From an uncultured Bacteroidales bacterium (GTDB lineage: Bacteria > Bacteroidota > Bacteroidia > Bacteroidales > WCHB1-69), in contig CAMKLG010000006.1 of assembly GCA_946413585.1 (NCBI GenBank), positions 1-64,000 of the forward strand: a DNA stretch of 64,000 nt. The letters are read 5' to 3'. Below, in pieces: positions 14,701 through 44,596 of the stretch. Within the stretch, counting starts at the first letter, position 1. Each line of letters starts with the position of its first letter. Both the position numbers and the translations under genes were made by a program. The notes under the pieces were generated by a model. It saw only the letters and a program-made list of their open reading frames with translations, was not told the origin of the DNA and made no database searches.

Positions 14701-15075
14701 TTACTCGTTTTCTTTCTTTTCTTCGATCTTTTCCTCTTTCTTGTTGTCAGATTTCTGATTCAAAGCAGCCTCATTGAAGGATATAGCAGCCTTATCGACC
14801 TCAATACGCACATCGTGAGCAATTTCAATCGTGAAGGTGTTGTCTTTGATGTCCGTGATTTTGCCATGAATACCGCCAATCGTGACGACTTTATCGCCCT
14901 TTTGCAGGCTATTGCGCGCTTCTTCTATCTTTTTCTGCTTTTTCTGCTGCGGACGAATCATGAAAAAGTAGAAAATGATAATCATCAACAGAATGAAAAT
15001 AAGCATAGAAGAGCCGCCACCGGCAGGAGAAGCAGCAGGAGCCGCGTCCAAAATAGGTAAAAAGATATTCATCAT
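14701..15075 (-). CDS. yajC: Preprotein translocase subunit YajC
   Basis: A 124-residue single-pass membrane protein of the YajC family, accessory to the SecDF complex. The membrane segment (about 24-42) runs into the conserved FFMIRPQQKKQKK, then GDKVVTIGGIHGKITDI. The tail is a long charged Lys/Glu stretch (from about 105), longer than in E. coli. Two adjacent ATG codons (15075 and 15072) are possible starts. Confidence 0.93.
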   Translation of the reverse strand: MMNIFLPILDAAPAASPAGGGSSMLIFILLMIIIFYFFMIRPQQKKQKKIEEARNSLQKGDKVVTIGGIHGKITDIKDNTFTIEIAHDVRIEVDKAAISFNEAALNQKSDNKKEEKIEEKKENE

Positions 15076-34206: not shown

Positions 34207-35103
34207 TTACCCTCTCAGGTTCAGCCCCGCCATCAGCGTGTCGGGCCGGAAATCCATGACGGAACGCATTTCCCCGGCCATGCAGAAACCGCATTGGTCG
34301 CAGACACCTGCGCTCTTACCTACGCATTCGGGCAGGCGCATGCCGTCGGGCAGTATATAGTTGCACATCCAACAGGCTTTCTCGAATGAGAGGTCTTTCA
34401 TCCGCTTCAGTCCAGAGACAGAGTTCATAATTGGCATACGCTTCTTTTTCTGTTCTATCAGTTTGTCAATCAATTCAATACGATTATCCCAATCCAAAAT
34501 AAGCGGGTCTTCGTCTTTGAAGAAGGCGGGCGTATAGAAGTTGAATGCGATGCTTTTGAAGGTGGGATGCTCTTTCACGAATTGCAGCGTGTCCATCACG
34601 TTTACATAGTTGTTAGAGTCTATGACCATGTTGGCACTCAGAGCTTTATGTCCGCAACTATCGACGTTTTTCACCAATTTGTCGAAGGTGCCTGCGCCGC
34701 GCACCGCGTCGTGGTATTCGTGGATGCCGTCCATGCTAACCCAAATCGAGTTGGCCTTGAGTCCAGCAAAAGGCTGTTGAGCGTTAGTCGTCACTGTAGT
34801 GGTGAAAAAGCCTATTACGTGCGCGAGGTCGATGAGGTCGTTGAGCCGCCGGTCGCCATCGCGCCACAGAGTCGGTTCGCCGCCTTCGAAATCCACGAAA
34901 CGAGAGCCCAACTGGTAGGAGTAGAGCAGTTCCTCGCGGATCTGGTCGTAACTTTTGACGGTCGGATGTTCATGGTCATACACGCTGCAGTGCGAACACG
35001 ACAGGTTGCACTGGTTGGTGATGAACAGCACCGTCTGCAGCGGTTTGCGCCGTTTCAGGAATTTGGTCTGGAAGTACCAATTACCGAGGTAGAAGAGCAT
35101 CAT
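34207..35103 (-). CDS. Radical SAM protein with C-terminal Cys cluster
   Basis: A 298-residue radical SAM enzyme. The SAM-cluster motif CNLSCSHC (Cys 32, 36, 39) and GGEPTLW identify it. The C-terminal 60 residues contain seven cysteines, including CWMC and CDQCGFC, which suggests one or two extra iron-sulfur clusters, as in SPASM/twitch enzymes or enzymes that use auxiliary clusters. The central YHDAVRGAGTFDKLVKNV resembles the HxxxRG segment of peptide-modifying and lipid-radical SAM families. No obvious substrate peptide is beside it. The N-terminus starts with two Met codons. Its promoter lies in a repeat module shared with the gene at 39.2 kb. Confidence 0.8.
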   Translation of the reverse strand: MMLFYLGNWYFQTKFLKRRKPLQTVLFITNQCNLSCSHCSVYDHEHPTVKSYDQIREELLYSYQLGSRFVDFEGGEPTLWRDGDRRLNDLIDLAHVIGFFTTTVTTNAQQPFAGLKANSIWVSMDGIHEYHDAVRGAGTFDKLVKNVDSCGHKALSANMVIDSNNYVNVMDTLQFVKEHPTFKSIAFNFYTPAFFKDEDPLILDWDNRIELIDKLIEQKKKRMPIMNSVSGLKRMKDLSFEKACWMCNYILPDGMRLPECVGKSAGVCDQCGFCMAGEMRSVMDFRPDTLMAGLNLRG

Positions 35104-35124: not shown

Positions 35125-35199
35125 CAAAGATAGACTTTTTTCGGGTTAGAAAGACAATGGAGTTGTTTTTTGGACGACAACTAGGACAACTGGGACAAC
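35125..35199 (-). promoter_or_regulatory. Promoter module copy 1 (GTTGTC repeats plus TATCTTTG)
   Basis: Read on the minus strand: three GTTGTC units at 9-bp steps (35199-35176), then CGTCCAAAAAACAAC, a CTTTCTAACCCGAAAA stretch and TATCTTTG (35132-35125). The order and sequence match the plus-strand module at 39130-39206 over about 75 bases. It drives the radical SAM gene. Confidence 0.7.
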
Positions 35200-35222
35200 A
35201 TTAAGGGATTTGAAAATATTTG

Positions 35223-35230
35223 TATCTTTG
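35223..35230 (+). promoter_or_regulatory. Promoter -7 element, TATCTTTGCGGCATGAAA type
   Basis: TATCTTTG at 35223-35230 is followed after four bases by ATGAAA (35235). The same string recurs at 37963 and, with one change, at 35993. Transcription would begin at or next to this ATG, so either the mRNA is leaderless or the real start is the ATG at 35280. Confidence 0.6.
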
Positions 35231-35279
35231 CGGCATGAAATCCACTATCGCATCTGACCAAGCTCAAACACCATCAAAG

Positions 35280-35939
35280 ATGAAATCAAACGAAAAGGAC
35301 AACTGTTTGTATGAGAGCAATTTGCCTATCTCACAATGTTTCTTAGGCATAGTATTGGCAATTGGACTAAGTATGCCTGCATTGTATCTTTCGGCAAACC
35401 CAATTTCCTCATACTTTTTGACAGTAGCGATATTGTCAATTATTGGATGGTCGTTATTTTTGAGGAAAAGTTTCTTTTATCAAGACCACATGGTCATCAC
35501 TTACCCTCTTCGTTTTATCCAGCGCCAAATCCGAATCCAATATGATGAAATCGAGGCTTTCATGTTCAGGGAAACGGGTCTTGAAGGAGAATTTCTTGAC
35601 ATCATCCCTAAAGAAGAAGCGAGTGTCCTAAGAAAACTGTACGTCAAATATTTTTGTTCTTCTATGGTTCGCTCTCGAGACAGGCACAAAAGAATGAGCT
35701 TTTTCTTTTTATTGAAATTTTTGAAGTCAGAAGGCTATTGGATAAAGATAATTGACAGGTCGTATGGTTTCACTACTCTTGAGAAGCGTGTTGAATTAGC
35801 GTTCGGTTCTGGCAATTCCGATTATGTGAGAAAATCACCTTCCGAAAGACGAAAAAGAAGGAAAAAAGACATTATAATAACTATTATCGCAATTTTGATA
35901 GGACTTGCGTTAGGTGTACTCCTCCCAATCCGCCGTTGA
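35280..35939 (+). CDS. Membrane protein of unknown function
   Basis: 219 residues from the ATG at 35280 (an ATG at 35235 would add 15 residues and have almost no leader). Two hydrophobic segments near the N-terminus (LGIVLAIGLSMPALYL and YFLTVAILSIIGWSLFL), a cytosolic or exterior domain with QDHMVITYPLRFIQRQIRI, which looks like the start of a PH-like fold, a basic stretch (SERRKRRKKD) and one C-terminal segment (IIITIIAILIGLALGVLLP). I do not recognise a family. A GTTGTC triple repeat follows ten bases after the stop. Confidence 0.65.
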   Translation: MKSNEKDNCLYESNLPISQCFLGIVLAIGLSMPALYLSANPISSYFLTVAILSIIGWSLFLRKSFFYQDHMVITYPLRFIQRQIRIQYDEIEAFMFRETGLEGEFLDIIPKEEASVLRKLYVKYFCSSMVRSRDRHKRMSFFFLLKFLKSEGYWIKIIDRSYGFTTLEKRVELAFGSGNSDYVRKSPSERRKRRKKDIIITIIAILIGLALGVLLPIRR

Positions 35940-35948
35940 TAACAAAGT

Positions 35949-35972
35949 GTTGTCCTAGTTGTCCCAGTTGTC
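35949..35972 (+). repeat. GTTGTC triple repeat, island copy
   Basis: Three GTTGTC units at 35949, 35958 and 35967, spacers CTA and CCA. It lies after one gene and 20 bases before the next promoter. Confidence 0.8.
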
Positions 35973-35992
35973 TTCCAAAACTGAAAAAATCC

Positions 35993-36000
35993 TATCTTCG
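35993..36000 (+). promoter_or_regulatory. Promoter -7 element, TATCTTCG variant
   Basis: TATCTTCG is followed by CGGC and ATGAAA, the gene start at 36005. The T to C change is the only departure from the motif at 35223 and 37963. Confidence 0.5.
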
Positions 36001-36004
36001 CGGC

Positions 36005-37264
36005 ATGAAATATCGCTGTTACAATTCATTTGTTCTTGCAATGCACCTTTTGCAGCTGCCCGTCATATTGATATGGCCCAGTACAACAACGGCTCAGTCG
36101 GTTAAATTAGCTGTATTCGCCACAGACTCTTTAACGGAAGAGAACGTGACAGATTGTTATGTTTATATCAATGACTCTGTTTTTCACCATTCACTTGATG
36201 GGGCCAATGTCGCATATTTCGTGTTGGATAATGCCAGAGACAACACATACAGAATCAGTGTTCACAAAACCCATTACCATGACAAAATCTTTGACTTAAA
36301 GGTGCCCAAAAACACACTGGATACGACTGTTTATGTCAAAATGAATTACATTTTTTCAGAGCCTCAGTTGCCTATCTTTTTTTTCGACAGTACAAGTACG
36401 TACCCTGACACCAATTTCAACCCTGTTTATACAGAGCCGGTCTTGTGGTTGGGGAAAATTCAGAAAGCCAACGATTTCACTGTACAGATAAATGCCTATT
36501 GTTCCTCTGGAAACAACATACAAGACCCAACACTGTGCGAGCAAAGAATACATTGCGTGAAAAATATGTTGATACAACATGGTGTCGATACTTCAAAAAT
36601 CGAGGTCCTGATGCATCAGTTTGAACCTTATCAAATATTATACCCACAGGAATTCGACCAGTATTTTCATTTCAAGGATATACTGAACGAGGGTTTTATA
36701 CGGAATCTTCCCGCCAGTGAAAAACGTAAAGCGATGAAGTACAACAGCCGCATAACGGTGACGGTTGCCGATGGCCGTTCGTCCACTAAAAGAAGTGTGC
36801 CAACGGCTTTGCATGACGATTCCATCCCCGTGGTCAAAACCGTAAACGAGTTGGCTCATTCTGATGCTAAAAAGGTGATGCTCAGAACGAACAATATTTG
36901 TTTTCAGTTTGTGACTCTGCATTTGGACACTATTGACTATCAAAATCGCGTTTTTTTGGATTCGATCGCGGATTACTTATTGTCACATAATAATGTGAAA
37001 TCTGTTGAAGTTAACATACACCTGTCACTTAAAGAATGGTATGAAGAATACTCCATAAGCAAGTTGTTATATATGTACGAAGAAATTATTTCCTATTTGG
37101 GAAATAAGGGTGTGGACACAACCTATATTACAGGAAAGCAATGCTATGATTACTATCCCATAATCGATTGCAACAAATTGTCAGGTGAAGAATGTCGGAA
37201 ATGTTTCGACAATGATGACTTCAGACTGAACCGGCGGGTGGAATTTGTGATAACCAAACGATGA
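36005..37264 (+). CDS. Exported protein with two OmpA-like segments
   Basis: 419 residues with an N-terminal hydrophobic signal (MKYRCYNSFVLAMHLLQLP). The first part (about 50-115) looks like a carboxypeptidase-regulatory-type beta domain. Then two OmpA-like C-terminal domains appear to follow: one around FTVQINAYCSS, EQRIHCVKNMLIQHGVDTSKIEV and YNSRITVTV (about 160-260), and one at the end with LYMYEEIISYLGNKGVDTTYI and the family-typical end LNRRVEFVITKR. The peptidoglycan-binding Asp and Arg are only partly kept. It may tie the outer membrane to the wall. Start at 36005 is four bases from the -7 element, so the mRNA would be nearly leaderless. Confidence 0.6.
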   Translation: MKYRCYNSFVLAMHLLQLPVILIWPSTTTAQSVKLAVFATDSLTEENVTDCYVYINDSVFHHSLDGANVAYFVLDNARDNTYRISVHKTHYHDKIFDLKVPKNTLDTTVYVKMNYIFSEPQLPIFFFDSTSTYPDTNFNPVYTEPVLWLGKIQKANDFTVQINAYCSSGNNIQDPTLCEQRIHCVKNMLIQHGVDTSKIEVLMHQFEPYQILYPQEFDQYFHFKDILNEGFIRNLPASEKRKAMKYNSRITVTVADGRSSTKRSVPTALHDDSIPVVKTVNELAHSDAKKVMLRTNNICFQFVTLHLDTIDYQNRVFLDSIADYLLSHNNVKSVEVNIHLSLKEWYEEYSISKLLYMYEEIISYLGNKGVDTTYITGKQCYDYYPIIDCNKLSGEECRKCFDNDDFRLNRRVEFVITKR

Positions 37265-37308
37265 TGATAATGTAAAACAAATAAGCAGGCACTAATAATT
37301 GAAGAAAA

Positions 37309-37917
37309 ATGAATCGACTCCCTAAAATTATCGTCCTGTCAATACTGATTGTCATAGGTGTCGTAGGTATAGCTTATGTGGCAATCATGGCGTACATACA
37401 CTATGATGTGTTCGGAAAAAGTCCGTCGTATGAAGGGACCAGACAGAATTTCATCAATAATGAGTTATATTTTCAGAAAACAGAAGATTGTTTTCAGAAA
37501 ATTGTCCAATGCTGTTTACCTGATTCATCGCAGGGTTCTCTTCTTTTCAGTATTCAGGAATCCGGTAACGAGTTTTTGTTTCGTTTGTTCTTTTCTACGG
37601 AAAACGAGACAGAACTTGTATTTCCGATAAGAAATTCAGACATTGAAATAAGCCAAGACCATAAGAAGATATTACAATCAAGGGGAATTGATTATAAATT
37701 AGTGAAAGCACTCTACTCGAATCTGAAAAAAACAAATTGTCGTTCGGTGGAGAAAGATAAACTAAATTCTAACAATGCGATATTTATGACCTTTAAAATA
37801 CTCGATTATTGTTCTATTAATTATTTGTTTTATCCTCAACCTTTTGAAGAAGATTCCATCAAGAGACATATATCCAACACGCCGCTCGGTCAGCGAGTAA
37901 GGATTTATGTCGAATGA
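37309..37917 (+). CDS. Membrane-anchored protein of unknown function
   Basis: 202 residues with one N-terminal membrane segment (about 7-29, IVLSILIVIGVVGIAYVAI). The rest is mixed alpha/beta, rich in Asn, Glu and Phe; Cys pair QCCL. I recognise no family. It follows the OmpA-like protein by 45 bases and could be co-transcribed with it. AT content is clearly higher than in the core genes around it, as expected for recently acquired DNA (by eye). Confidence 0.6.
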   Translation: MNRLPKIIVLSILIVIGVVGIAYVAIMAYIHYDVFGKSPSYEGTRQNFINNELYFQKTEDCFQKIVQCCLPDSSQGSLLFSIQESGNEFLFRLFFSTENETELVFPIRNSDIEISQDHKKILQSRGIDYKLVKALYSNLKKTNCRSVEKDKLNSNNAIFMTFKILDYCSINYLFYPQPFEEDSIKRHISNTPLGQRVRIYVE

Positions 37918-37962
37918 TTCTACAAATGTTTTCTAAGTTGTCTCCCAACCAGAAAAAAATCC

Positions 37963-37970
37963 TATCTTTG
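37963..37970 (+). promoter_or_regulatory. Promoter -7 element, TATCTTTGCGGCATGAAA type
   Basis: TATCTTTG with CGGC and ATGAAA (37975) directly after. A single GTTGTC unit is at 37937. Confidence 0.6.
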
Positions 37971-37974
37971 CGGC

Positions 37975-38037
37975 ATGAAACTCACCGCCAATTCTTTTGA
38001 GATAAGTTCTAACCTTTTCAACAGCCTTGAATCATGA
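37975..38037 (+). CDS. Mini-ORF of 20 codons overlapping the next gene
   Basis: ATGAAACTCACC... reads MKLTANSFEISSNLFNSLES and stops at TGA (38035-38037) inside the ATG of the next gene (ATGA). The ATG is four bases behind the -7 element. It could be a leader peptide that delivers ribosomes to the downstream start. Whether it is translated is unknown. Confidence 0.35.
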   Translation: MKLTANSFEISSNLFNSLES

Positions 38038-38279
38038 GCCGCAAACGGCATAGTACATCCAAGTCGAAGTACCGCAAAAGGACATCGTACGCTCAGAAGC
38101 ATCCTCGGGCTCGGGCCAATAGTGAGCGCCCCTCGCCTCAAGAAGTGGAGAATGAGAAGGGTAGGATAATCTTTATAATCATTTTGATTATCGCCATCGT
38201 TGGCCTATTGTTATACTTGATTCAAGGGGGTGTGCCCGCATACGATTGGTATCCTGGTAGAGCTTTTTACGATAGATAA
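38034..38279 (+). CDS. Small basic single-pass membrane protein
   Basis: 81 residues: a strongly basic first 40 (SRKRHSTSKSKYRKRTSYAQ) and one membrane segment (about 45-65, IIFIIILIIAIVGLLLYLI), ending YDWYPGRAFYDR. Topology by the positive-inside rule places the basic part in the cytoplasm. The family is unknown. The start overlaps a 20-codon mini-ORF by four bases, so translation is probably coupled. A GTTGTC triple repeat follows ten bases after the stop. Confidence 0.6.
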   Translation: MSRKRHSTSKSKYRKRTSYAQKHPRARANSERPSPQEVENEKGRIIFIIILIIAIVGLLLYLIQGGVPAYDWYPGRAFYDR

Positions 38280-38289
38280 CAACTATAAT

Positions 38290-38313
38290 GTTGTCTTAGT
38301 TGTCCAAGTTGTC
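38290..38313 (+). repeat. GTTGTC triple repeat, island copy
   Basis: Units at 38290, 38299 and 38308 with spacers TTA and CAA. No TAnnTTTG element follows it; the next gene starts 22 bases later. Confidence 0.75.
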
Positions 38314-38334
38314 GTTTCCCCAAACAATCCCAAT

Positions 38335-39114
38335 ATGAACAAGCTCCGCATCCTGCTCATCCTTTTCCTCCAAGCGACTTTTGCCGTTTCGCTGAACGGG
38401 CAGAACGGCCCCTGCTTCCGATTCGTTGACACGCTGTATCTGAAAGCGAACGTGTTGCACGTATGGCATGCCACCTGCGTCTGTCCATCCCTGAGTTGCG
38501 TAGTTCGTGACGACTCCGAAAAAGAGATCGCCCTCTCTTTGTTCAGCGGGGAATCGCATTTCCCGGAAGAGGCTATGCCGCCGCTGCTCAACCATACGCT
38601 TGCGGACAGACAGTTCGTCTTGATGCGGAATTATCTCGAAGACAGCCTCTCCAACCGGTTCACCTGGAAGCAGATCCGACATTCGTTGGAAGATGGAATA
38701 CATATTGACACAACGGAGAAGATGGACCATTTCCGCGAGGAAGTGATCATGAAACGCGAGAATCCAGACCATCAGTTTTATGATTCCATCCATGATGTCA
38801 TGATAGAATGGCTTGACAGAATCTTGGAATTTTCCGAAGAGGAGCTAAGCATTGGTAATTTACTTTTCGAAGAGAAAGGGAAACTCAATCCGCGACCCTC
38901 TGACGACGCGCCTATTGACACCATAGTCTGCAACGGCGACACCTATTGTTTGAAGGAGTCCCCCTTCGAATCATGGGGAATCTTGGTGGAAGTACAAAAT
39001 GAGTGCAACTTCTTCAATTACGACACGGCGGAAATGGATCTCCTGCAGCATCACAAATTCAAGAAGATCACATTATTTGTCCCTTTGAAGAAGAAAGAAT
39101 CTGTGCAGGAGTAG
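38335..39114 (+). CDS. Exported protein of unknown function
   Basis: 259 residues with a signal peptide (MNKLRILLILFLQATFAVSLNGQ). The start at 38335 is chosen for the signal peptide; the longer frame covers the repeat. The mature part has paired cysteines (CVCPSLSC) and helices rich in Glu, ending in KKITLFVPLKKKESVQE. No family recognised. It has no promoter of its own directly upstream, so it is probably transcribed with the basic membrane protein. Confidence 0.65.
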   Translation: MNKLRILLILFLQATFAVSLNGQNGPCFRFVDTLYLKANVLHVWHATCVCPSLSCVVRDDSEKEIALSLFSGESHFPEEAMPPLLNHTLADRQFVLMRNYLEDSLSNRFTWKQIRHSLEDGIHIDTTEKMDHFREEVIMKRENPDHQFYDSIHDVMIEWLDRILEFSEEELSIGNLLFEEKGKLNPRPSDDAPIDTIVCNGDTYCLKESPFESWGILVEVQNECNFFNYDTAEMDLLQHHKFKKITLFVPLKKKESVQE

Positions 39115-39129
39115 TTTTCCATAATAATT

Positions 39130-39206
39130 GTTGTCTTTGTTGTCCCAGTTGTCGTCCCAAAAAACAACACTCTTGCCTTTCTAACCCGAAAATAATTGTA
39201 TTTTTG
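39130..39206 (+). promoter_or_regulatory. Promoter module copy 2 (GTTGTC repeats plus TATTTTTG)
   Basis: GTTGTC units at 39130, 39139 and 39148, then CGTCCCAAAAAACAACAC, CTTTCTAACCCGAAAA and TATTTTTG at 39199-39206. This matches the inverted copy at 35125-35199 and drives the AAA-ATPase gene. The two copies point outward and flank the 35.2-39.1 kb genes. Confidence 0.7.
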
Positions 39207-39226
39207 CACCGCAAACCTTACCGTAT

Positions 39227-40771
39227 ATGAAATACCCTATCGGCATACAGACATTCGCGAAAATCAGAGAAGAAAATTTCCTCTATGTTGATAAAACAAA
39301 AGATGTTTATCAATTGGCAAAGGACGGCGGCTACTATTTCATCAGTCGTCCCCGCAGGTTCGGTAAAAGTCTGCTTATCACCACGTTGGAGGCTTACTTC
39401 CAAGGGCGGAAGGAACTGTTCGATGGGTTGGCCATCAGCGAGTTGGAGAAGGAATGGAAGCAATATCCCGTGTTGCATATCGACCTCAACGCAGCAAAAT
39501 ACACAGATCCTCAAGCTCTTGTTTCCATTATTAACAGGCATATCCGGCAATTCGAAAGCATCTATGGCGGAAGTACCGAAGACATGGCTTTGTCAGACCG
39601 CTTCGTGGGAGTTATCCAAAGAGCCTACGAGCAAACAGGGCAGCAGGTGGTCATTCTGGTGGACGAATACGACAAACCACTGTCGGAGGCAATCGGCAAT
39701 GACGAGCTGCAAAACGAATACCGAAAAGTTCTGAAATCGATATATGGCGTGGGCAAGACGATGGATGCTTGTATCCGTTTTGCACTGTTCACAGGCGTAA
39801 CCAAATTCTCGAAAGTGAGCGTATTTAGCGATCTCAACAACCTGAAAGACATATCTTTAGACCATCGATATAATGAGATTTGCGGCGTTACCGAGCAAGA
39901 AATCCGTGCCAATCTCGATGTGCAAGTCGGAGAGATGGCAGAGGCGAACGGGATGAGTAAGGAAGAGTGCTATGAACAGCTGAAAAAACAGTACGACGGC
40001 TACCATTTCAGCAAGAGTGGCGTGGGGATTTACAATCCTTTCAGTCTGCTCAATGCGCTTGACAGTCAAGACTTTGGAGATTACTGGTTCGCATCGGGCA
40101 CCCCCACCTTTTTGGTGGAAACCATGAAGCGTAACCACTACGACCTGGAACGACTCACCTGCGAGGATGCCACTGCCGATCTGTTGGGTAGTCTGGACTC
40201 CATCGACACCAACCCGATACCGTTGGTTTACCAAAGCGGTTACTTAACCATAAAGGGATATGATCCTCGGTTTATGACCTATCGGTTGGGCTTTCCCAAC
40301 GAAGAGGTGGAAAGAGGTTTCTCCCGTTTCTTGTTCAGATATTACACCCCAGCAAGTCAAGGTAGGGACAGCTTCATTAAGGATTTCGTAATGGCGATTG
40401 AGGCTGGACAGATTGAGAAGTTCATGTCTTTATTGGAAACACTTTTCGCCGGACAAGACTACCAATTGGCGGGTGATGCCGAACTTTACTTCCACAACGC
40501 AGTGGCGCTCATATTCAAGATGGTGGGCTTCTACACTGACACCGAGCGGCACACCAGTGACGGTCGCATGGACATGGTGGTGCAAACCGCCGACTATATC
40601 TACCTTTTCGAGTTCAAGTTGGACAAATCCGCCGACGAGGCGTTGGCCCAGATTGAAGAGAAGCAGTACGCCGCGCCGTTCGCCCAAGATCCGCGCAAAC
40701 TCTACAAAATCGGGGTGAACTTATCCTCCGAAACCCGTCGGATCGAGAGTTGGAAAGTGGTGGAACGGTAA
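39227..40771 (+). CDS. AAA-ATPase-like protein with PD-(D/E)XK nuclease domain
   Basis: A 514-residue protein of a very common Bacteroidetes family (AAA-ATPase_like plus DUF1703). N-terminal MKYPIGIQTFAKIREENFLYVDKT (parts YPIGIQTF and YVDKT), the P-loop-like RPRRFGKSLL, Walker B ILVDEYDKPL, and at the C-terminus GRMDMVV...YLFEFKLDK, the PD-(D/E)XK nuclease signature. Physiological function is unknown; many copies per genome and high variability suggest a role in genome conflict or mobile elements. Length is complete. Confidence 0.85.
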   Translation: MKYPIGIQTFAKIREENFLYVDKTKDVYQLAKDGGYYFISRPRRFGKSLLITTLEAYFQGRKELFDGLAISELEKEWKQYPVLHIDLNAAKYTDPQALVSIINRHIRQFESIYGGSTEDMALSDRFVGVIQRAYEQTGQQVVILVDEYDKPLSEAIGNDELQNEYRKVLKSIYGVGKTMDACIRFALFTGVTKFSKVSVFSDLNNLKDISLDHRYNEICGVTEQEIRANLDVQVGEMAEANGMSKEECYEQLKKQYDGYHFSKSGVGIYNPFSLLNALDSQDFGDYWFASGTPTFLVETMKRNHYDLERLTCEDATADLLGSLDSIDTNPIPLVYQSGYLTIKGYDPRFMTYRLGFPNEEVERGFSRFLFRYYTPASQGRDSFIKDFVMAIEAGQIEKFMSLLETLFAGQDYQLAGDAELYFHNAVALIFKMVGFYTDTERHTSDGRMDMVVQTADYIYLFEFKLDKSADEALAQIEEKQYAAPFAQDPRKLYKIGVNLSSETRRIESWKVVER

Positions 40772-40778
40772 ATGCCCT

Positions 40779-40786
40779 TATCTTTG
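40779..40786 (+). promoter_or_regulatory. Promoter -7 element of the 40.8 kb lipoprotein gene
   Basis: TATCTTTG followed by CGCC and an ATG (40791) that opens a seven-codon frame MIFSKTE ending TAA at 40814; the real gene starts six bases later. Confidence 0.6.
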
Positions 40787-40819
40787 CGCCATGATATTCT
40801 CCAAAACTGAATAATACAA

Positions 40820-41488
40820 ATGTTCCATAAGATTGTTTGGCTGCGTTTTCTTTTTGGCGTGTTGTTCTGTAGCACGTCAATCTTGTTGCTTGTTTCGTGT
40901 GGACGGTCTGACAAACAGGTAGTTAACCCAATATTGGTTGACACCTTATCTGAAGAGAAGTCGTTGAACGAAACGAACAACAATCTTCAAAGCAAGAGTC
41001 GGACAAACTTGCCTTACGTGCTGCCCATCGACAGCTTGTGGGAATATTATGATGCAGCTTGGACAACGTCCGGCAGATGCAACAGACCCGAGATATTTGA
41101 TGACGACAGCAGTAAAAACTTGATGTGCGGCTTTTATACTGTGTTAGATTCTCGTTCAAGTTCTTCACCGCCTATAGTTGCAAGCATTATTGTCTCCTAT
41201 CGCAAGAACAAGTCCTGGAAAAGTTCAGACACTACGCAAAAAATCAGGATGATTCACGTCAAGGACAGATTGTTTACCCTGCCCATCGCCCCTTTTCACG
41301 TAGGAGAGCCCATCAGATGCATAAAAGACAAGGCTGTGTTTAAGAAAGACTGCTACCTTTGTTACTCCGGTGAAAAATACCGTTATGTGGTTCAGTCTTC
41401 TAAAGACACCATCCAACAGTTTTATGTTCTGCCTCATGATCTGACGAGCGACTGGCCACGGATTTTAAAATATGTTGAAACTTACTAA
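40820..41488 (+). CDS. Lipoprotein of unknown function
   Basis: 222 residues with a hydrophobic N-terminus and lipobox LLVSCG (Cys at about 27). The mature region is soluble, rich in Ser, Asp and Lys, with no motif I recognise (SSSSPPIVASIIVSYRKN in the middle, CYLCYSGEKYRYVV later). Outer-membrane attachment is expected. The next gene begins two bases after the stop. Confidence 0.65.
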   Translation: MFHKIVWLRFLFGVLFCSTSILLLVSCGRSDKQVVNPILVDTLSEEKSLNETNNNLQSKSRTNLPYVLPIDSLWEYYDAAWTTSGRCNRPEIFDDDSSKNLMCGFYTVLDSRSSSSPPIVASIIVSYRKNKSWKSSDTTQKIRMIHVKDRLFTLPIAPFHVGEPIRCIKDKAVFKKDCYLCYSGEKYRYVVQSSKDTIQQFYVLPHDLTSDWPRILKYVETY

Positions 41489-41490
41489 AA

Positions 41491-41802
41491 ATGAATGCTA
41501 TAATAAATTGGTTCGTCATCTTGGTAGTCGTTGTTTTGCAATTAGACAGGCTATTAGTGTGTTATAAAGTGACGGATTTGATACAAAACGAAAATGCAGA
41601 TGTGTATAAACACTATAAAGGCCCATATAGCTTGATCAAGAAGAAACGTCTTGTACTGAATTCCATCTGGTTCACCAAAAAAGATCGTGAAAAACTCTCC
41701 TCTGAATGCAAAAGACTTTTTTTACGACAACGAATAGACATTATAGGCTCTGTTTTGGTCGTCATTCTATGGATTGTTTTGATTGTTGCCATTAATTATT
41801 GA
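41491..41802 (+). CDS. Two-segment membrane protein of unknown function
   Basis: 103 residues with membrane segments at both ends (INWFVILVVVVLQLDRLLV and IIGSVLVVILWIVLIVAIN) and a basic cytoplasmic loop (YSLIKKKRLVLNSIW). It follows the lipoprotein gene by two bases and is presumably translated with it. No family recognised. Confidence 0.6.
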   Translation: MNAIINWFVILVVVVLQLDRLLVCYKVTDLIQNENADVYKHYKGPYSLIKKKRLVLNSIWFTKKDREKLSSECKRLFLRQRIDIIGSVLVVILWIVLIVAINY

Positions 41803-41864
41803 TTCAAGTTTCGGAAGTCCCAATATATTGCAAGACACAGGGTCAGTGGTTATGCTTTTTTTGC

Positions 41865-41872
41865 TATTTTTG
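41865..41872 (+). promoter_or_regulatory. Promoter -7 element of the CdiI-like gene
   Basis: TATTTTTG, 11 bases before an ATG (41884) opening the six-codon frame MKKFLL, whose TGA overlaps the ATG of the real gene at 41901. Confidence 0.55.
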
Positions 41873-41900
41873 TCGTGTTTTCTATGAAAAAGTTTCTGCT

Positions 41901-42365
41901 ATGAAAAAGCCTAAAAGTCTGAACAAAAATTACATGAGAAGTATCTGCCAGTTAGAAGGATGGGATTGGAAAGGCGAGACAATAACCGAAGATGACGGTA
42001 TGGTTGTCTACCGCTCTTACCAACTCACCCAAAAACCGCTTAAGGCTCTCTCTCCCGAGGATATTCGTTTTTTGATCGGTCAACAATGTGGACTCCCCTA
42101 TCTAGTGCCAATGGCATTGGAAATTTTGGAAAGGGATTTTTTCATTGAAACAGAATACTACAAAGGCGATTTAGTCGAGGCTTTGCTGCAAATTAAGGAT
42201 GACAACAAATACGATTATTGGCCAAGTCACCCTATGGAAAAAGCAAGATTCTGTGAAATGTACAAGAAAAATCAAGAAAACATGGAGGAGGTTCTAGATG
42301 TGTCTGTGTCTGGGCATATCATCAAAGAAATCAGAAAGCAATTCGATAAATTCTGTATGCAATAA
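41901..42365 (+). CDS. CdiI-type contact-dependent inhibition immunity protein (orphan)
   Basis: 154 residues. The core LSPEDIRFLIGQQCGLPYLVP followed by MALEILERDFFIETEYYKGDL, cited here as DIRFLIGQQ, GLPYLVPMALEIL and YYKGDL, is the signature of the CdiI_3-type immunity family of contact-dependent growth inhibition systems. Such proteins bind the toxin tip of a neighbouring cell. No CdiA, Rhs or toxin gene is in the window, so it is an orphan that may protect against siblings. The start at 41901 overlaps a six-codon upstream frame (ATGA). Confidence 0.75.
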   Translation: MKKPKSLNKNYMRSICQLEGWDWKGETITEDDGMVVYRSYQLTQKPLKALSPEDIRFLIGQQCGLPYLVPMALEILERDFFIETEYYKGDLVEALLQIKDDNKYDYWPSHPMEKARFCEMYKKNQENMEEVLDVSVSGHIIKEIRKQFDKFCMQ

Positions 42366-42398
42366 GATAATACGATCAGTCAACTATTGTGCTAGATT

Positions 42399-42422
42399 GT
42401 TGTCCTAGTTGTCCAAATTGTC
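42399..42422 (+). repeat. GTTGTC triple repeat, island copy at the right edge
   Basis: Units at 42399, 42408 and a changed one (ATTGTC) at 42417, spacers CTA and CAA, followed by GTTC. It is the last copy, next to the dpp5 promoter. Confidence 0.75.
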
Positions 42423-42514: not shown

Positions 42515-44596
42515 ATGAAGAAAACTTTTTTCTGTTTATCATTGGTTATGATAATGGTAAGTGGTTGTAAACAAGCAAAAAACGAGAACAACAGCGCGGC
42601 AATATGCAAAGAGAACCGCGAGACGCCCGACTTCTCGAAGGGCGTGATGGATGAGAAAATCCTTTGGTATTTGGGACGGTTGGGCGACGTGCAGGTTTCG
42701 CCCGACGGCAAAACGTTGCTCTACGCAGTGACCTACTATGACTACCGCGTAAACAAAGGCAATACAGAACTTTACACCATGCCGGCTACGGGCGGCGAAC
42801 CTACTCGTATCACCGTTTCCGAAGAGAACGAGATGCAACCGATTTGGCGTCCCGATGGCAAAAAAATCGCCTACCTCCGCGCCAACGACAAGGGGATGCA
42901 GATTTGGGAATCCGATCCCGATGGCAAAAACGCCAAGACCATCAGCAATGTGGATGGCGACATCAACGGTTTCAGCTATGCGCCTGATATGAAACACATT
43001 TGCTATTTCCAAAATGTGCAATTAGAGCAAACCATTGCGGAACGTTATCCAGACCTGCCTGATGCCGACGCGATGATTTACGACGACCTGATGTACCGCC
43101 ACTGGAACTACTGGGCCGACGGCACTTACAGCCATCTTATCGTGATTGACTACCCCTCCATGGACAACGCCGTGGATTTGCTGGAGAATCAGAAGTTCCA
43201 CTGTCCGAACCCGCCGTTCGGAGGTATGGAGGAGGTGGCCTGGCTTCCCGATGGCAGCAAACTAGTTTATTGCTGTAAGAAGCTGACAGGTAAGGAGTTC
43301 GCAGAGAGCACCAACACCGATATTTATCTCTATGATTTGAACACGAAGACCACCCAGAATCTGACGGAGTTCAACAAGGGTTACGATATGGACCCGGTAA
43401 TCTCTCCCGACGGCAAGAAGATGGTGTGGTGGAACATGAAAACCGATGGGTTTGAATCGGAAAAGCACAGTTTGATGATTTATGACTTCCAAACAGGCAC
43501 TGCGGACGACTATAGTACTGATTTTGACCAAGATGCGACTGGCTTTGCATGGAGTGAGGACAGCAAAACCGTTTATTTCATCAGTTGCATTGAAGCCACG
43601 CATCATGTTTATAAGATGAATGTTGAATCGCGCATCATCGAGCAAATCACGAATGGTGATTACGACTACAACACCGTGCAAGTAGATGGCAATCAGCTGA
43701 TTGTCACGCGCACCACACACGCCGATCCCTCCGAAATCTACGCAGTACAACTCAACAACAAGTCGGTGAAGCAGCTCAGTTTCATTAACAAAGATGTTTT
43801 AGACAAGATTACACCTGCCAAGACGGTAAAACGTTGGGTAAAAACCACCGACGGCAAGCAGATGCTCGTGTGGGTAATTCTGCCCCCGAACTTCGATTCC
43901 ACTAAGAAATATCCCGCTTTGCTGTATTGTCAAGGCGGACCGCAATCCTCTGTAAGCCAATTCTTCTCCTACCGTTGGAACTTCCAGATGATGGCCGCGC
44001 ACGACTACATCATCGTGGCTCCGAATCGCCGCGGCGTGCCTGGTTTCGGAAGCAAATGGAATGACCAAATCAGCGGCGACTACGCTGGTCAAAACATGAA
44101 GGACTACCTCTCTGCCATCGATGATGTGGCGAAAGAACCTTATGTGGATGAGAACCGATTGGGCTGTGTAGGAGCAAGTTACGGTGGATTCAGTGTCTAT
44201 TGGCTCGCCGGGCACCACGAAAAACGCTTCAAGGCGTTCATCGCACACTGCGGTATGTTCAACTTAATAAGTTGGTACGGCACTACCGAGGAACTCTTCT
44301 TCGCCAACCATGACATCGGAGGCCCTTATTGGGCAAAACAGGTACCCAACACCTACAACTTCTCGCCACACAAATTCGTGGGTCTTTGGGACACCCCGAT
44401 TTTGGTCATCCACGGCGGCAAGGACTTCCGCATCCCCTACACCGAGGGTATGCAGGCTTTCGACGCTGCTCAAATGCAGGGCATTCCGAGTCGTTTCCTC
44501 TTCTTTCCAGAAGAGTGCCACTTCGTCTCGAAACCTCAAAACTCCATGTTGTGGCAGAGAGAGTTCTTTAGGTGGCTGGATCAGTGGCTGAAATAG
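42515..44596 (+). CDS. S9 family dipeptidyl peptidase, DPP5-like
   Basis: A 693-residue exported serine peptidase, lipobox VSGCKQ with Cys at about 18. A WD-like propeller (GDVQVSPDGKTLLYAV and SPDGKKMVWW repeats) precedes the hydrolase domain: nucleophile GASYGGFS, Asp in GGKDFRIP and His in EECHFV. The spacing fits DPP5 of Porphyromonas, which releases dipeptides after hydrophobic residues at P1. It is not closely related to the DPP4 copy at 24 kb. The TAG stop lies in a TAGCTGTTGGC repeat. Confidence 0.88.
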   Translation: MKKTFFCLSLVMIMVSGCKQAKNENNSAAICKENRETPDFSKGVMDEKILWYLGRLGDVQVSPDGKTLLYAVTYYDYRVNKGNTELYTMPATGGEPTRITVSEENEMQPIWRPDGKKIAYLRANDKGMQIWESDPDGKNAKTISNVDGDINGFSYAPDMKHICYFQNVQLEQTIAERYPDLPDADAMIYDDLMYRHWNYWADGTYSHLIVIDYPSMDNAVDLLENQKFHCPNPPFGGMEEVAWLPDGSKLVYCCKKLTGKEFAESTNTDIYLYDLNTKTTQNLTEFNKGYDMDPVISPDGKKMVWWNMKTDGFESEKHSLMIYDFQTGTADDYSTDFDQDATGFAWSEDSKTVYFISCIEATHHVYKMNVESRIIEQITNGDYDYNTVQVDGNQLIVTRTTHADPSEIYAVQLNNKSVKQLSFINKDVLDKITPAKTVKRWVKTTDGKQMLVWVILPPNFDSTKKYPALLYCQGGPQSSVSQFFSYRWNFQMMAAHDYIIVAPNRRGVPGFGSKWNDQISGDYAGQNMKDYLSAIDDVAKEPYVDENRLGCVGASYGGFSVYWLAGHHEKRFKAFIAHCGMFNLISWYGTTEELFFANHDIGGPYWAKQVPNTYNFSPHKFVGLWDTPILVIHGGKDFRIPYTEGMQAFDAAQMQGIPSRFLFFPEECHFVSKPQNSMLWQREFFRWLDQWLK

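Follow-up and report, generated by a model that had tools for sequence, protein, structure and literature searches.

A short GTTGTC repeat at most joints of a variable accessory island in an uncultured rumen-type Bacteroidales genus

In integron arrays every cassette has a joint of its own on its 3' side, and cassettes are gained and lost as units; the core of the joint, attC, reads GTTRRRY. Here we describe an accessory island with arrays of another short motif, GTTGTC, at most of its joints, in the first 64,000 nucleotides of contig CAMKLG010000006.1 from an uncultured Bacteroidales bacterium (assembly GCA_946413585.1), a stretch that we call, at its full length, the window. The island comprises nine genes, A to I, between a radical SAM gene (SAM) and a DPP-type S9 peptidase gene (DPP), and the motif occurs between genes in two forms, non-palindromic half-sites and hairpins of about 62 bp. 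The island would resemble integron arrays in these single joints behind the cassettes and in the turnover of whole units; unlike theirs, its motif does not fit the attC core, and no integrase was found among 20 window proteins scanned with Pfam. Porphyromonas gingivalis belongs to the Bacteroidales as well. Its BrickBuilt miniature inverted-repeat transposable element (MITE) shares with the GTTGTC arrays an intergenic position, tandem repeats and small inverted ends, but has a unit of 23 bp without spacers (PMC4596501).

Four further systems come close by description. Like the recombinase-associated acquired interbacterial defence (rAID) arrays of gut Bacteroidales, the mechanism of whose biogenesis is described as an area of active research, the island has co-oriented and mostly short genes, predicted orphan immunity genes and a motif at intergenic joints; unlike rAID arrays, whose genes lie below 41% GC, it exceeds that value in four of nine genes, includes a 514-aa ATPase and has no tyrosine recombinase among the window proteins scanned (PMC12247911). 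Homologues of its genes stand among Rhs-tip toxin fragments, as in orphan rhs toxin/immunity modules (Koskiniemi 2014, PMC3967940), but no Rhs tip was found among the window genes scanned, and 16 Rhs loci considered below have no GTTGTC array. TAACTGA direct repeats (MacGregor 2015, PMC4679880) are likewise short, intergenic and patchy across lineages, a few Bacteroidetes included; they differ in consisting of 7-bp units set head to tail, mostly just before start codons in their main host, whereas GTTGTC has 6 bp plus a spacer of 3–4 bp, lies mostly after stop codons and has a hairpin form. GTAG/CGTC repetitive extragenic palindromic (REP) elements and their associated RAYT transposases (PMC3733652) offer intergenic palindromes, often behind genes, but these are 20–40 bp long with a tetranucleotide tag at one end, unlike the 62-bp hairpins and non-palindromic halves seen here, and we found no link to a RAYT. 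These systems, with BrickBuilt, are the nearest ones, and none is matched in full.

The gap between SAM on the left (34207..35103, minus strand; PF04055, with a match of E at most 1e-60 in 22 of 40 genus genomes) and DPP on the right (42515..44596, plus strand; PF00326) was compared in relatives that carry both genes on one contig. It measures 144–166 bp in five of them (G010, G012, G017, G050, G055; G, C and L numbers are our handles for genomes, contigs and loci), and 847–850 bp in four (G006, G009, G014, G021); G051 has 4,146 bp there, and the window 7,411 bp. Each of the 847–850 bp gaps holds one other gene, hexapeptide acyltransferase-like by eye and unrelated to the island, and none of the nine relatives with short gaps has a GTTGTC array there (contigs L058–L068 minus L063 and L064). 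Among relatives the island is thus whole, partial or absent in one and the same gap; it is wholly or partly present in three genomes, namely the window's own, G051 and G003, the last with the order C-array-E-array-DPP at a contig end. Across the 40 genus genomes, DPP has a match of at least 73% identity in 32, only a 43–46% paralogue in seven and none in one. The DPP–lptG joint is kept in 11 of 11 contigs (L058–L068) of the window's clade, 17 genomes that we delimited from SAM and DPP identities, and the lplA–SAM joint in 10 of 11 (L064 has no SAM match); with both joints stable, the SAM–DPP gap is therefore a local hot spot.

Window and G051 differ by one repeat-to-repeat block. Where they share the island, 36 of 41 hundred-base bins are 95–100% identical, and G051 lacks F, G, H and I, so that the array at 39130 joins the right flank of the array at 42399 directly, a difference of 3,270 bp. 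A gap that is empty in five relatives, holds an unrelated gene in four and part or all of the island in three genomes, together with a missing block that lies between two repeats, supports the cassette-like assembly proposed in the first-pass annotation of this DNA, which had named even spread of the repeat across the genome or synteny in relatives as evidence to the contrary; we found the repeat unevenly spread and the island genes not syntenic.

A pattern scan recovered the five triplet arrays and the single unit of that annotation. Array 1 (35176..35199, minus strand) is reversed and has three units; arrays 2 (35949..35972), 3 (38290..38313) and 4 (39130..39153), all on the plus strand, have three units each; and array 5 (42399..42422, plus strand) has two exact units plus ATTGTC. 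Arrays 4 and 5 form the left and right joints of the F–I block. The single exact unit (37937–37942) belongs, in a one-mismatch scan, to a degenerate plus-strand array that includes GTTTTC (37928..37942). Units in the window follow one another at a 9-bp step, and over about 85 bp array 1 and its outer flank resemble array 4 and the flank beside it (82%). Six of the nine island gaps of at least 44 bp hold the repeat, in keeping with the proposed order of gene, repeat, promoter and gene, but gaps B–C, F–G and H–I, and also the 2-bp gap G–H, hold none, and the rule accordingly has exceptions. The promoter is no special part of it: a TAnnTT[T/C]G box occurs in 23 of 39 stretches between repeat and start codon versus 68 of 116 repeat-free gaps of 40–200 bp, and we rejected the repeat as a promoter part.

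Allowing one mismatch at most, we counted 13 instances of the two-unit pattern in the window, where 0.35 would be expected (100 shuffles, maximum 3). All nine exact matches fall within the island, as do two of the four one-mismatch matches, the others lying at 14839 and 18274. The claim that the repeat is absent outside the island therefore holds for exact matches in the window but not for the genome (G000; 2.98 Mb in 125 contigs, from an uncultured, rumen-type genus), which has 23 exact matches, nine of them in the island. A coding filter placed arrays outside frames on C10, C64, C87 and C117 and inside frames on C41, C82 and C86. Outside the island this leaves about five intergenic sites (C10, C64, C87 twice and C117), where the second C87 hairpin, assigned by the filter to a 66-aa open reading frame, is counted as intergenic. 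By the binomial distribution, the probability that five of ten intergenic sites would fall within 7.4 kb (0.25%) of a 2.98-Mb genome is 2e-11.

Homologues of A to I are reshuffled elsewhere in the genus, in other orders and on other strands (22 loci examined, 19 mapped); in the island, GTTGTC arrays stand at most joints. Searched with the island's DNA, 29 of 40 genus genomes, among them the window's own, yielded pieces, many of which are copies of gene F. What comes next behind the array changes from locus to locus: after gene C it is a B-type gene (L140), E (L048), an Ntox44 Rhs-tip gene (L141) or a Tae4 Rhs-tip gene (L179); after E it is F (window), DPP (L047, L048) or a 284-aa gene (L144, L157); and after D it is E in the window and in L155, and a 192-aa gene in L153. 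Proteins of the neighbouring arrays include Rhs-core fragments, Tae4, Ntox44, DUF3990/DUF3791, AbiEii, AAA_14/DUF4143 and PDDEXK_3, and Rhs_assc_core itself is present in relatives' arrays (L138; under the cut-off in L179). At a second locus, behind a gene that we take to be trmA, the gene across a hairpin is NAGLU in G010, G014 and G020, a 254-aa gene in G050 and G055, and a PDDEXK_3 gene in G000. The 254-aa gene with two hairpins makes a 0.92-kb unit that is about 90% alike in G021, at another site, and in G050 and G055; in the G021–G050 pair, both alignment ends of the unit lie at arrays.

The repeat is concentrated in one lineage. In the genus, the pattern GTTGTC-Y-N(2-3)-GTTGTC matches 317 times, spread over 30 of 40 genomes, and its reversed control 39 times; 287 of the 317 lie in the 17 clade genomes, 6 to 30 in each, whereas the other 23 genomes have 0 to 8 apiece. 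The exact three-unit pattern was found in 14 of 40 relatives, namely in the genome of the window itself and in 13 others of its genus, and in none of 16 from other families. A narrower three-unit pattern, run over 393 genomes of the order, hit only G000 and G119, a member of another Bacteroidales family that has the same architecture of triplets and hairpins and whose three searched congeners have no match. At one G119 locus (L298, on G119:C3), GTTGTC triplet hairpins alternate with TTCCTCGCGAGGCTCGGAA-type repeats. Viral contigs gave a single match (L304), within an open frame by our reading. A search of the open-library literature for an earlier description of the repeat, GTTGTCCCAGTTGTC included, showed none among the records listed, which is no proof of absence in print.

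With moderate confidence we propose that short, lineage-specific intergenic repeats travel at cassette ends and lend homology, and that the island is a set of variable accessory cassettes held between conserved genes. The arrays would be MITE- or REP-like repeats of this lineage that settled just behind stop codons and now move along with cassettes. Equal arrays at many joints would then offer short homologies for RecA exchange or replication slippage, by which cassettes may sometimes be gained, lost or re-joined at arrays, one array being left per joint. Ordinary cell recombination would suffice; among the proteins scanned there is no sign of a dedicated enzyme, nor of the recombinase for which the first-pass annotation had advised looking near other arrays. 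Alignments among 128 loci are consistent with exchange at the repeat: of 1,898 ends, 202 fall no more than 30 bp from an intergenic array, where position alone would predict 31.6, and at 112 of the 1,898 homology stops at an array in both loci. Because each pair is counted from both sides and the loci are related, several overlapping in content, these ends are not independent events.

Several results weigh against this proposal. When intergenic ends alone are considered, the excess shrinks to 156 of 722 versus 108.9 expected, and an array that directly follows a stop codon can mimic an alignment end at a gene's end. Across the 17 clade genomes, joints with the repeat are kept slightly more often (60 junctions, 101 of 312 comparisons) than repeat-free ones (162 junctions, 146 of 570), with a one-sided permutation p of 0.999 for repeat joints being less conserved; repeat joints as breakage hot spots are thus not supported, and the earlier suggestion that the repeat is a recombination site is in keeping with the shared alignment ends but gains no support from these adjacencies. 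The control is itself biased in favour of stable repeat joints, since most loci entered it by way of the repeat and Rhs arrays are among the repeat-free ones. At trmA, seven repeat-free clade genomes show six kinds of next gene and six genomes with the hairpin show three, in counts that leave out G051 (contig end), G007, and G012 and G040 (no match). Hints of crossovers inside arrays, in the form of shared spacers, are too few and variable for proof. Gene E of L155 has an array on one side only, and the lptG–recA joint, kept only in G051 (1 of 11), changes without any array. Sixteen Rhs loci of the genus, picked by TIGR03696 (Rhs_assc_core) from among the matches listed, have no GTTGTC array, and we rejected the idea that the repeat resides in Rhs arrays. 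Only two of the nine island genes have support for an immunity function, I by domain and C by position. The repeat is possibly a place where exchange can happen, unproven as its cause.

The arrays could instead be 3'-end elements (bidirectional terminators, RNA-processing sites or protein-binding sites) copied with accessory genes and without a role in recombination, an account that we consider unlikely though well short of negligible. Among 160 unique arrays, a chosen part of the matches listed, 96 are intergenic: 78 half-sites and 18 hairpins. The gene upstream of a half-site is co-oriented in 53 cases, opposed in 22 and absent in three, and the co-oriented half-sites begin a median of 22 nt behind the stop codon, 41 of 53 within 50 nt, as 3'-end elements would; for the four full hairpins tested, RNA parameters give folding energies of -31.6 to -43.9 kcal/mol, several hairpins are bordered by A or T runs, and they sit mostly in convergent or tandem gaps (divergent in 1 of 18). 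That repeat joints are not broken more often also fits. But half-sites are the majority, and the 61-nt folds of the four tested are weak, at -4.2 to -9.9 kcal/mol, so that these are not intrinsic terminators; in addition, the same gap has no arrays in empty relatives, and G051 differs at two arrays. Chance or low-complexity sequence is scarcely credible as a source. The remaining 64 of the 160 arrays do lie in reading frames, some as 42-bp coding repeats, and part of the matches must accordingly have another origin, but the excess in the window over shuffles and in the genus over the reversed pattern refutes a chance origin of the intergenic arrays. In L009, L010, L019, L028 and L032, GTTGTC triplets recur with a 42-bp period inside open frames of 219–564 codons; these are predicted to be a coding repeat, distinct from the intergenic arrays.

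Movement by a transposase acting in trans on non-autonomous MITE- or REP-like elements, with the half-site as one end and the hairpin as two ends tip to tip, would account for the clade-specific expansion, for the inverted arms of the hairpin form (18 of 96 entries) and for the same architecture in G119 but not in its searched congeners. We regard it as improbable: of the transposase families, the one searched, Y1, is present in 36 of 40 genomes regardless of repeats, repeat-poor ones included, and 19 of 20 loci examined around Y1_Tnp genes (24 fetched; the exception is L261) have no arrays, on which grounds a RAYT transposase as the mover was rejected. Small hairpins of the form GTTGTCCC-N-GGGACA lie near Y1 transposase genes in L245, L253 and L255, on G005:C1 (on both sides) and on G044:C24. 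The hairpins CTGTTGTCCC-N-GGGACA beside some Y1 genes have letters in common with the unit, yet we do not link them to it because they occur once in the window's genome. A dedicated cassette system, with an attC-like array at each cassette 3' end, an unlinked recombinase and n+1 arrays for n cassettes, appears quite improbable. The window can be parsed as five blocks with six joints, one of them a single unit, its nine genes are co-oriented with arrays behind stop codons, and both the F–I difference from G051 and the hairpin-bounded unit found at two sites are what such a system would leave; the reversed first array, the one-sided array of E in L155, the ordinary stability of repeat joints and the lack of a recombinase among the 20 window proteins scanned speak against it. 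It is also doubtful that the triplet joins the cassettes of a system that is dedicated to toxin/immunity genes and either lacks an integrase or has an unlinked recombinase, in which half-sites would mark cassette 3' ends, the 62-bp hairpin would be two joints tip to tip, and capture and shedding would take place at the repeat.

The island genes themselves all lie on the plus strand (9/9), and seven of nine encode 81–259 aa; GC is below 0.41 in five (A, B, C, H, I) and above it in four (D, E, F, G). Gene A (35235..35939, 234 aa, no family) has an 85% homologue in another array (L139). Gene B (36005..37264, 419 aa) shows weak OmpA-like NCBIfam matches far under the cut-offs, and its homologues adjoin Rhs-tip-like genes (the L138 neighbour with Rhs_assc_core, the L141 and L152 neighbours by eye). 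Its halves (residues 16–261 and 263–419) match two separate L138 genes, which suggests a two-domain protein whose halves can occur apart. Gene C (37309..37917, 202 aa) is predicted to encode an immunity-type protein because in L141 its homologue begins 3 bp after an Ntox44 gene, where an immunity gene usually stands. Gene D (38034..38279, 81 aa) has homologues in L047, L138, L142, L143, L153 and L155, and gene E (38335..39114, 259 aa) in L047, L048, L144, L155, L156 and L157. Gene F (39227..40771, 514 aa), with many copies in the genus, combines AAA-ATPase_like and PDDEXK_9 domains (PF09820, PF08011). Gene G (40820..41488, 222 aa) has homologues in L139, L140, L142 and L143, gene H (41491..41802, 103 aa) in 8 of 22 loci searched, and gene I (41883..42365) encodes a CdiI_3 immunity protein (PF18616, E 1.1e-20). 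For genes other than B, C, F and I, Pfam, NCBIfam (all but D) and PADLOC gave no family, and PADLOC matched none of the nine. No toxin family was found in the nine proteins with Pfam or in eight of them (all but D) with NCBIfam, which likewise gave no Rhs_assc_core match in those eight. The Pfam scan covered 20 proteins in a window with 54 open reading frames of at least 110 aa, and among these 20 it found no recombinase or integrase, no genome-wide integrase search having been made. Predicted structures of E and C, built on two-sequence alignments, had mean predicted local distance difference test (pLDDT) scores of 33.3 and 48.0 and were not used. Given genes I and C and the company that island homologues keep, we infer that the island probably consists mostly of orphan immunity-type cassettes.

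Several observations concern the island's edges and surroundings. Against L047 (G051), two 100-bp bins of gene A (window 35504–35703) are only 77% and 91% identical and two of gene C (37504–37703) only 63% and 66%, a sharp divergence such as mosaic or diversifying immunity genes show. Between window and G051, DPP shares 94% identity (87% in DNA over the first 300 bases) and lplA and recA are 100% identical, a difference that may reflect replacement at the right border of the island. In several relatives (L038–L040, L045, L046) the gap contains short tandem repeats of a different kind, which by eye are of AGTTAG type and resemble the TAACTGA class, and in the empty gap of G017 (L041) lies a perfect palindrome whose 15-bp arms are TGTAGAGACGTGCCA and its complement. 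About 3 kb to the right of the window, L262 (G000:C6:67156–77777) has Rhs-tip-like and small genes without GTTGTC arrays.

These results bear on the ways in which gut Bacteroidales collect and exchange orphan immunity genes. In a clade with no obvious recombinase, a short repeat at cassette joints points to another route, one that can be tested. Should the triplet prove to be a true cassette joint, it would give gut Bacteroidales an integron-like store of immunity genes; if the repeat is passive, it would still help to locate accessory islands in uncultured rumen species.

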